42,697 nt of DNA, taken from positions 1 to 42,697 of the forward strand of contig JAIFNA010000010.1 of the NCBI GenBank assembly GCA_020048055.1. The letters run 5' to 3'. This document shows positions 37,456 through 41,136 of the stretch, piece after piece. The stretch's first letter is position 1, and each line of letters begins with the position of its first letter. The position numbers were made by a program, and so were the translations under genes. The notes under the pieces are model-generated. The model had not been told where the DNA came from. It made no database searches and was given only the letters and a program-made list of their open reading frames with translations. Source of the DNA: Arcobacter sp. Its GTDB lineage: Bacteria; Campylobacterota; Campylobacteria; Campylobacterales; Arcobacteraceae.

Positions 37456-38487
37456 CTAAAATCCTTTAAGAACTTCTATAACATCGCTCTTTTTAATTTC
37501 ATCTGTTATCTTAACATCACCTATTCCAAGGGGTAAAATAAATTTGATTTTATCATCAAGTGATTTTTTATCAAGGAAAAAATGGTTGTAAAAATCTTCA
37601 ACATTATCAATTTTATATGTTGTTGGTATCTCATAACTATCAAGTAAATCTTTAATACTTTTAGCTTGAAGCTCACTCAAAAGTCCAATTTTTACCGCCA
37701 AACTATTTGCCATCACCATACCAATTCCAACAGCTTCACCATGGAGATATTTACTATAATTTGTCTCATTTTCTATCACATGCCCAAAAGTATGTCCATA
37801 ATTAAGTGCTGCCCTTAATCCTTGCTCTTTCTCATCAACACTAACAACATAAGCTTTTGTCTTTACGGATTTTTCAATTGCTTTTGCAATATTTTTTTCA
37901 TTATCAAGTCGGTTTAGAAGGAGCCACTCGAAAAATTCTCCACTAAAACAAACAGCCATTTTTATAATCTCAGCAACACCTGCACCAAACTCTCTTTTTG
38001 GTAGAGTAGTTAAAAAATATGGGTCGATATTTACCTCTCTTGGTTGATGAAATGCGCCAATTAGGTTTTTTCCAAATTTATTATTTATACCAGTTTTTCC
38101 ACCAACACTAGCATCAACTTGACTAAGAAGGGTAGTTGGAATCTGAATAAAGTCAATCCCCCTTTGATAAATAGAAGCCGCAAAACCTGTCATATCACCA
38201 ATTACGCCACCACCAAAAGCTATCAACACTGAGCTTCTATTTAATTTATGTGTGAAACAATGATCCAAAATCATCTCTAAAGTTTCCATAGTTTTGTACT
38301 CTTCGCCATCAGGTACACTTACAACAGAGACCTCATTTGCTTCAAGTTTTGACAATAGATATGGAAGATGAAACCCACTCACAGTTGGGTTTGTGACGAC
38401 AACAACTTTACTTTTTAGTTTTATATTTTTTAGTTTATCGATATATATATCGTAAGATGTGCTAGGAAGTGTGATATTAACTGTCAT
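37456..38487 (-). CDS. aroB: 3-dehydroquinate synthase
   Basis: A 343-residue NAD- and metal-dependent enzyme turning DAHP into 3-dehydroquinate. The GGGVIGDMTGFAAS loop, the PTTLLSQVDASVGGKTGIN motif and the metal His in NYGHTFGHVIE are intact. Promoter-proximal gene of the aroB-mscS-mtaB-GGDEF-mltA run. Confidence 0.98.
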   Translation of the reverse strand: MTVNITLPSTSYDIYIDKLKNIKLKSKVVVVTNPTVSGFHLPYLLSKLEANEVSVVSVPDGEEYKTMETLEMILDHCFTHKLNRSSVLIAFGGGVIGDMTGFAASIYQRGIDFIQIPTTLLSQVDASVGGKTGINNKFGKNLIGAFHQPREVNIDPYFLTTLPKREFGAGVAEIIKMAVCFSGEFFEWLLLNRLDNEKNIAKAIEKSVKTKAYVVSVDEKEQGLRAALNYGHTFGHVIENETNYSKYLHGEAVGIGMVMANSLAVKIGLLSELQAKSIKDLLDSYEIPTTYKIDNVEDFYNHFFLDKKSLDDKIKFILPLGIGDVKITDEIKKSDVIEVLKGF

Positions 38488-38506
38488 TTTGTATCCAAAA
38501 ATTGAT

Positions 38507-38512
38507 TTTATA
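38507..38512 (-). promoter_or_regulatory. Candidate -10 box for the aroB operon
   Basis: On the minus strand this reads TATAAA, 19 nt before the aroB start, giving a very short leader with at most a weak GGA in front of the ATG. It is back-to-back with the pepD promoter. Confidence 0.4.
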
Positions 38513-38549
38513 AGTGACTAGATTTTAACGAAAACTTACTAAAAATAGA

Positions 38550-38555
38550 TATAAT
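38550..38555 (+). promoter_or_regulatory. -10 box 7 nt before pepD (leaderless)
   Basis: Exact TATAAT ending 7 nt before the pepD ATG at 38563; the spacer is CCCGCCC. With normal promoter geometry transcription would start at or beside the A of ATG. There is no Shine-Dalgarno sequence and no better -10 upstream, so a leaderless mRNA is likely. Confidence 0.55.
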
Positions 38556-38562
38556 CCCGCCC

Positions 38563-39852
38563 ATGATTTTAGAACTATTTAAACAAATTACAAAAATACC
38601 AAGATGTAGTAAAACACACCAACCATTTATAGATTTTATGGTTGGTTTTACAAAAGAAAACGATTTTGTTTGTGAAATTGATGATGCAAAAAATATCCTT
38701 TGCTACAAAAAAAATGGTAAACGAAAACTTTGCCTACAAGCACACTACGATATGGTTTGCTTAAGCGATGGGAAAATCCCACAAATTGTAGAGATTGATG
38801 GGTATCTAAGTGCTATTGATTCAACCTTGGGGAGCGATAATGGAATTGGTTGCGCTTATATGTTGGCACTTATTTTAGATGGGTACGATTGTGAATACCT
38901 TTTTACAAGCGATGAAGAGATCGGGTTAATTGGTGCTAATAATCTTACTTTAGAACTACAAGCTTCATATATGTTAAACCTCGATAGTGAAGAGGAGGGG
39001 CGAATTTGTATCGGTTGTGCTGGTGGAATTGATATTTTTGCCACTTCACAAGATGGTAAAATTGTTCAAAATTTAGAAACTAAAACACTCTATGAACTAA
39101 CTATTGATGCACTTAATGGTGGACACAGTGGAGTTGATATAGATAAAAATATCCCAAATGCGATTAAATTAATAGCCCAAACAATTAAAGAGTGTGACGG
39201 AGAAATTATCTACATAAACGGCGGGGAGAGAATCAACTCAATCCCAAAAAAATGTAAAGCGATAATTGCAACCTCAAATGAGCCAAAAGCGATTCACCAA
39301 AATATGAAAATAGTAAAAATAGATGGCACAAGTGAACACTATAAAAGATTTGACAACTCTATTTTAGAGTTTCTTTATAATTTTGAAAATGGTGTGAGAG
39401 AAACAAATAGCGACCTAAATATTCCACAAACATCGATCAATTTATCTATTATTGAAACAAAACTTGACTCAATCATTATTTCATTAAGCGGAAGAAGTAT
39501 GGATAATGATGAACTAACAAAACTTAAAAACAATACAATAGATGAAGCAAAATCTTTTGGTTTTAGTGTTGAAACAAATGGGAAATATCCAGCTTGGAAA
39601 CCAAACAAAAATATATTTTCTGATATAGTTTTAGAAATTTACAAAAAATATGATGAAAATGTATCTTTTGAGGCAGTTCATGCTGGACTTGAATGTGCGA
39701 TATTTAAAGATAAATATCCAAAAATATTGATAACTTCAATTGGACCAAACATCTATTTTCCGCATAGCAACAGAGAAAATTGTGATATTGCTTCAGTTTA
39801 CAGAGTTTTTGAAGTATTAAAAGAGATAACAAACAAAATAAATAAAAATTAA
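38563..39852 (+). CDS. pepD: Aminoacyl-histidine dipeptidase-type M20 peptidase
   Basis: A 429-residue cytosolic di-zinc aminopeptidase of the PepD (Xaa-His dipeptidase) group. Metal ligands are seen in LQAHYDMV (His, Asp), TLGSDNGIG (bridging Asp), FTSDEEIGL (catalytic Glu pair), NLDSEEEG and, near the end, a His in the IYFPHSNRE segment. It is a little shorter than E. coli PepD (485). The start fits homologues even though it has no ribosome-binding site. Confidence 0.94.
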   Translation: MILELFKQITKIPRCSKTHQPFIDFMVGFTKENDFVCEIDDAKNILCYKKNGKRKLCLQAHYDMVCLSDGKIPQIVEIDGYLSAIDSTLGSDNGIGCAYMLALILDGYDCEYLFTSDEEIGLIGANNLTLELQASYMLNLDSEEEGRICIGCAGGIDIFATSQDGKIVQNLETKTLYELTIDALNGGHSGVDIDKNIPNAIKLIAQTIKECDGEIIYINGGERINSIPKKCKAIIATSNEPKAIHQNMKIVKIDGTSEHYKRFDNSILEFLYNFENGVRETNSDLNIPQTSINLSIIETKLDSIIISLSGRSMDNDELTKLKNNTIDEAKSFGFSVETNGKYPAWKPNKNIFSDIVLEIYKKYDENVSFEAVHAGLECAIFKDKYPKILITSIGPNIYFPHSNRENCDIASVYRVFEVLKEITNKINKN

Positions 39853-39870
39853 ACAAATTAAGGGGAAAAA

Positions 39871-41136
39871 ATGGATTATTTAAAAATACAAGGGGAGTCA
39901 ATAATAAAAGGGGAGATTGCAATTACAGGTGCAAAAAATGCAGCTCTCCCACTTTTGGCTTCAACAATATTAGCTTCAAACAATGTAGTTATTTCAAATT
40001 TACCAAATGTAGTTGATATTAAAACGCTTCTAAAACTATTAAGAATGCTTGGTGCAAAGTTTGACCATAAAGTTAATGACATTACAATAAATACAAGTGA
40101 GCTAGACAAAACAGAAGCTACTTATGATATTGTAAAAACAATGAGAGCTTCAATTTTAGTTTTAGGACCTTTACTTGCTAGATTTGGGCATTGTGAAGTT
40201 TCACTTCCTGGTGGTTGTGCTATTGGACAAAGACCTGTTGATTTACACCTTAAAGCACTTGAACACATGGGTGCAGTAATTGAGATTAAAAGTGGGTATA
40301 TAAAAGCAACTGCTCCAGATGGACTAAAAGGGGCTACAATTGTATTTGATAAAATCACAGTAACAGGAACTGAAAATATAGTGATGGCAGCAGCACTAGC
40401 ACATGGAAATACAACAATTATAAATGCAGCAAAAGAACCTGAAGTTGTGCAACTTTGTGAAGTTTTAAGAGATGCTGGAGTTGAAATTAGTGGAATTGGT
40501 ACAAATACACTAGAGGTCAAAGGGAGCGGTGGAAAACTTTTAGAATTTAAACCATTTAGTGTTATCCCTGATAGAATTGAAGCTGGAACTTATCTTTGTG
40601 CTGGTGCTATTACAAATAGTGTATTAAAAGTTACAAATGTAATCCCAAAACACCTAGAAGCTATGCTTGTAAAATTTGAAGATATGGGCTTTAAAATAGA
40701 AAGAGAAGAGAATGCTGTAACAATTTTACCTGCAACAAAAATCAAACCAATCCATATCACAACAACAGAATATCCAGGATTTCCAACAGATATGCAAGCT
40801 CAATTTATGGCTGTTTGTACTATTGCAGAGGGTGTAAGTATCATAGATGAAAAACTATTTGAAAATAGATTTATGCATGTTAGTGAACTTTGCAGAATGG
40901 GGGCAGATATTAGTTTAAACGGAACAGTTGCAACAGTTGTAGGAACTCCAAATAAACTGTTTGGAACAGATGTTATGGCTACTGATTTAAGAGCTAGCAG
41001 TGCATTGGTTTTAGCTGCACTTGTAGCAAATGGTGAAACAAAAGTTCACAGAATCTACCATCTTGATAGAGGATATGATAGATTAGAAGAGAAACTTACA
41101 AATCTTGGTGCAAATATACTTAGAGAGAAAGAATAA
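39871..41136 (+). CDS. murA: UDP-N-acetylglucosamine 1-carboxyvinyltransferase
   Basis: A 421-residue MurA, the first committed step of peptidoglycan precursor synthesis. K22-N23 ([10 protein letters not shown]) and the fosfomycin-target C116 ([11 protein letters not shown]) are present, so it is predicted fosfomycin-sensitive at the target level. AAGGGG precedes the ATG. It lies 18 nt after pepD and ends in a stem-loop. Confidence 0.98.

Follow-up and report, generated by a model that had tools for sequence, protein, structure and literature searches.

A -10 element adjoining the start codon suggests a leaderless pepD mRNA in a genus of the Arcobacteraceae

How is translation started on a gene whose apparent promoter leaves no room for a leader? 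The question is raised by a peptidase gene in the 42,697-nt stretch of Arcobacter sp. DNA that we analyzed (the window). The 429-residue ORF (38563..39852, plus strand) starts at an ATG (38563-38565), and its product scored 30.3 bits against Pfam M20, above the cut-off of 24.6, and 290.7 bits against TIGR01893 (aminoacyl-histidine dipeptidase PepD), below the cut-off of 343.75; it is therefore called a PepD-like M20 peptidase (pepD). The first-pass annotation had described an exact TATAAT 7 nt before the ATG, a CCCGCCC spacer and no Shine-Dalgarno (SD) sequence. This description was borne out: the -10 element TATAAT occupies 38550-38555 and the C-rich 7-nt discriminator CCCGCCC occupies 38556-38562 on the plus strand, and none of the cores AGGA, GGAG, AAGG or GAGG was present 5-16 nt upstream of the ATG. 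Pairing with the anti-SD came to -0.4 kcal/mol, against a median of -5.0 kcal/mol for starts without the motif. The -10 spacing would place the transcription start at 38562-38563 on the plus strand, most likely on the A of the ATG (38563), a placement that also draws on the usual preference for starting on a purine. The TATAAT is preceded by GA, which fits the gnTAnaAT form given for epsilonproteobacterial leaderless genes in PMC3847290; the pepD sequence combines this form, 5-9 nt from the start, with an ATG and no SD.

The divergent neighbor of pepD is aroB (37456..38487, minus strand). The gap between the two genes is only 75 nt (38488-38562) and ends in TATAAT-CCCGCCC-ATG; both promoters must lie in it, or else transcription comes in from a more distant site. 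On the minus strand of the gap, TAAAAT is found at 38527-38522 and again at 38510-38505, and could be a -10 element of aroB, in which case the divergent promoters would crowd the gap. Downstream, murA (39871..41136, plus strand) lies 18 nt beyond pepD, and the two genes are probably co-transcribed. In contrast to pepD, murA has its own likely SD, AAGGGG (39860..39865, plus strand), an ordinary contrast inside one apparent operon. A simple sigma-70 scan, which requires a -35 element, listed no site at pepD, and Rfam gave no RNA element in the window.

Since TATAAT is frequent in AT-rich DNA, the hexamer alone proves nothing, and its position was therefore tested. TATAAT occurred 51 times in the window against 72 in shuffled sequences, making it rarer than chance if anything, and TATAATN{4,12}ATG was not in excess over the whole genome (387 matches, the reversed control giving 449). 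The distance test was anchored on ORFs. It covered 439,894 bases with a GC content of 31%, or 22% of the genome with the window counted in, and 398 ORFs of at least 120 aa, with overlaps over 30% removed, the most upstream start taken and 4343 internal start codons as background. A -10-like hexamer lay 6-7 nt before the start of 19 of the 398 ORFs where 3.2 were expected (p=3e-8), and an exact TATAAT did so in four (0.37 expected, p=0.003), these counts being approximate as the true ORF starts are not known. None of the 19 leaderless-type ORFs had an SD-like motif, compared with 220/398 overall; ATG starts were found in 17/19 compared with 305/398, a small difference. The leaderless class is visible in this distance test only, not in the counts of the hexamer or of TATAATN{4,12}ATG. 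A second genome of the genus (G007) had the geometry in 9/270 ORFs (1.8 expected, p=3e-4). Two other genera gave 9/339 (p=0.065) and 5/333 (p=0.4) in the same test, little or no excess, which makes the class an uneven one across the family.

The pepD gene was found in 52 of the 60 genomes searched, including its own. TATAAT-N7-ATG precedes it in six of the eight genus genomes, again counting its own, and one more (G002) has N8; all seven leaderless-type members start with ATG. The eighth member, G004 (locus L007), has AGGAGG upstream of pepD, no -10 element at 5-9 nt and a different upstream neighbor, aroB beginning about 2.9 kb away. When six of the seven leaderless-type members (G005 being too short upstream) were compared without gaps at -60..-16, 13-21 of 45 positions were identical, except for one pair with 25 and one with 34. 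In these sequences, the -10/ATG geometry is kept in 7/8 genus genomes while the upstream DNA has largely diverged. Downstream of pepD, murA is present in all seven genus loci with a contig long enough to include it and in no locus of the other relatives; aroB adjoins pepD in 3/7 genus loci (L001, L004, L006). In G002 (L181) the -10 element lies inside a perfect 7-bp inverted repeat, GATTTGG-TATAATG-CCAAATC, perhaps an operator or a chance occurrence. Close relatives of the locus also stand in two public records (L062, L064) under the names Helicobacter pylori PMSS1 and Desulfosporosinus, titles that look mislabelled.

Outside the genus the picture is different. The named loci are the best 80 of 100; six of them are the genus loci L061-L066, and the other 74 (L067-L140) were taken as outside the genus. 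An SD precedes 56 of these 74, 15 start with TTG and 4 with GTG (19/74), and a -10-like hexamer lies 18-32 nt upstream in 27. L121 is the only one of the 74 with a hexamer 5-9 nt upstream; the spacing there is N9, and the locus has an SD as well, with a second -10 element at 26 nt. A protein tree of 57 rows placed six leaderless members in one clade (100/100), while G002, represented by a fragment, paired with G004 elsewhere (89/84); this placement makes one gain with one loss, or two gains, both compatible with the tree.

A search for TATAAT followed by seven G/C gave only two sites in the genome (none in the reversed control), both directly before an ATG. One is pepD and the other is panC (C1:148065-148896, minus strand; L213/L222), whose upstream sequence reads TATAATCCGCCCC-ATG and whose identity is given by TIGR00018 (313.7 bits against a cut-off of 212.75). 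Among the eight genus genomes panC was found in six, five of which have TATAAT-N7-ATG, and G002 has a weaker TACACT-N6-ATG. In the five relatives outside the genus that gave a match, the first codon is TTG in three and ATG in one, and one was not read. We consider panC a second leaderless candidate on these grounds.

The 6 nt after the -10 element contain 2.05 C on average in leaderless-type spacers, compared with 0.99 in leadered mRNA promoters (n=81, p=0.002) and 0.94 at chance sites (p=0.004). Leaving out pepD and panC lowers the figure to 1.71 but does not abolish the enrichment (p=0.016 against chance sites and p=0.010 against leadered promoters), and the contrast is seen again in G007 (2.22 against 0.64, p=0.001). 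The tRNA promoters of the same genome are richer still, with 2.73 C per 6 nt in a rule-based count for which 15/30 tRNA loci had a usable -10. Together with those of other Arcobacteraceae (L183-L212, L233-L262), they have a common C-rich discriminator resembling TATAAT-YCCAYTCC. The string TATAATYCCRYYCC occurs in 29/41 family genomes, with one reversed-control match in all; of 30 such loci fetched, ARAGORN placed a tRNA immediately downstream in 23, and Rfam a partial tRNA in one more. A 16S search of the genome gave no match, although its completeness is given as 99.99; the assembly probably lacks the rRNA genes or has them masked, and the stable-RNA comparison covered tRNA promoters. In Escherichia coli, stable-RNA promoters such as rrn P1 have GC-rich discriminators and are stringently controlled. 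The C/G-rich stretch between the -10 and the presumed +1 of pepD looks alike in composition, and pepD is protein-coding, unlike rrn P1.

It is possible, at perhaps one chance in four, that promoter regulation of the stable-RNA type is what maintains the C-rich spacer, leaderlessness being a by-product of the adjoining start codon; this is compatible with a leaderless pepD, so the odds of the two are not exclusive. The C-rich tRNA promoters and the tRNA genes behind most TATAATYCCRYYCC loci speak for it. However, the pattern was noticed post hoc and in small numbers, and the enrichment of leaderless-type spacers was not significant in G012 and G016 (p=0.27 and 0.12). The pepD spacer resembles the tRNA promoters of its own genome in composition, but it does not match YCCRYYCC over 8 nt, the eighth base being the A of the ATG, and ARAGORN and Rfam found no tRNA at 6/30 fetched TATAATYCCRYYCC loci. 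On a simpler reading, the composition could instead reflect purine avoidance: with pyrimidines directly ahead of the ATG, the polymerase would find no earlier purine to start on. Somewhat more speculative is the idea that genes of this genus (pepD with murA, panC and others) might have become leaderless when the start codon was joined directly to a C-rich discriminator like that of tRNA promoters. A single short element would in that case fix the start site, with no purine directly ahead of the ATG, together with growth-rate control of transcription and leaderless translation. Searches of the discriminator literature listed nothing on a C-rich link between tRNA and leaderless promoters.

A promoter further upstream is conceivable, so that pepD would have an ordinary leader lacking an SD and the TATAAT at 38550 would be unused. 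The absence of an SD proves nothing by itself, as 178/398 sampled ORFs have no SD-like motif at their most upstream start, and AT-rich DNA offers other weak -10-like strings. We nevertheless hold this to be unlikely, as TATAAT and its spacing are kept amid diverged upstream DNA and only 75 nt separate pepD from the divergent aroB. That the true start codon lies elsewhere and leaves a normal leader is very improbable: the likely start is 1-5 codons further upstream in 72/74 homologues taken as outside the genus, yet no in-frame ATG, GTG or TTG lies between the upstream stop and the pepD ATG, in its own genome as in G002, a scan of 14 codons found none in the six other genus loci (L064 having a shorter upstream sequence), alignments to homologues begin at query residue 1, 2 or 3 with one partial match as the exception, and the next possible start is codon 26. 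The first-pass annotation had also held that the start fits homologues, which stands for the beginning of the alignments and needs correcting for the outside-genus starts.

Our preferred explanation, to which we give a probability of about 0.87, is that the housekeeping sigma factor transcribes pepD from an extended -10 promoter, with transcription starting on the A of the ATG or on the preceding base. The mRNA would then have no 5' leader, and initiation would rely on the 5'-terminal AUG rather than on SD contact. The leaderless form would be the state of this genus, relatives mostly having a leader with an SD. Counting against a leaderless pepD are the AGGAGG of G004, the N8 spacing of G002, the uneven presence of the class in the family, the lack of any TATAATN{4,12}ATG excess, and the Campylobacter jejuni predictions of leaderless genes that turned out leadered (one) or unclear (14).

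How does such a gene compare with known leaderless systems? In Mycobacterium tuberculosis leaderless transcripts are reportedly extensive, going by the title of PMC3898074. They resemble the proposed pepD mRNA in starting at the start codon; in the Arcobacteraceae genome, by contrast, the class comprises 19/398 ORFs, about 4% above background. Closer cases come from Campylobacter jejuni, where 19/471 mapped 5' UTRs are shorter than 10 nt and 12 of these 19 begin exactly at the start codon; an ATG, a TAnAaT element and the lack of an SD are common to all 19, and species differ in the leaderless state (PMC3847290). Ribo-seq in C. jejuni supported six leaderless candidates, showed one predicted case to be leadered and left 14 unclear (PMC11955535). 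The leaderless mRNAs of C. jejuni and Helicobacter pylori are like pepD in having gnTAnaAT about 5-9 nt before the ATG, no SD and variation between species. They were mapped by dRNA-seq, whereas pepD is known here from sequence alone, and pepD differs in its C-rich spacers and in an arrangement that most of a genus retains. Neither "pepD" nor "dipeptidase" is mentioned in the main text of PMC3847290. Searches for leaderless genes of Arcobacter or Sulfurimonas listed no further paper on the subject, and one for Epsilonproteobacteria listed PMC11955535 as well.

The geometry kept in the genus, the genome-wide -10 excess and the C. jejuni precedent all support the reading of pepD as leaderless, which the first-pass annotation had proposed and which is very probably right. 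Leaderless genes are already known in this phylum; what is added is that the arrangement is genus-wide and that its discriminator is C-rich and tRNA-like. With leadered orthologues, one of them inside the genus, pepD would be a conserved leaderless case in which both modes of initiation can be compared on the same gene. A C-rich promoter element that the tRNA genes of this genus have in common with its leaderless genes would be testable by starvation experiments.
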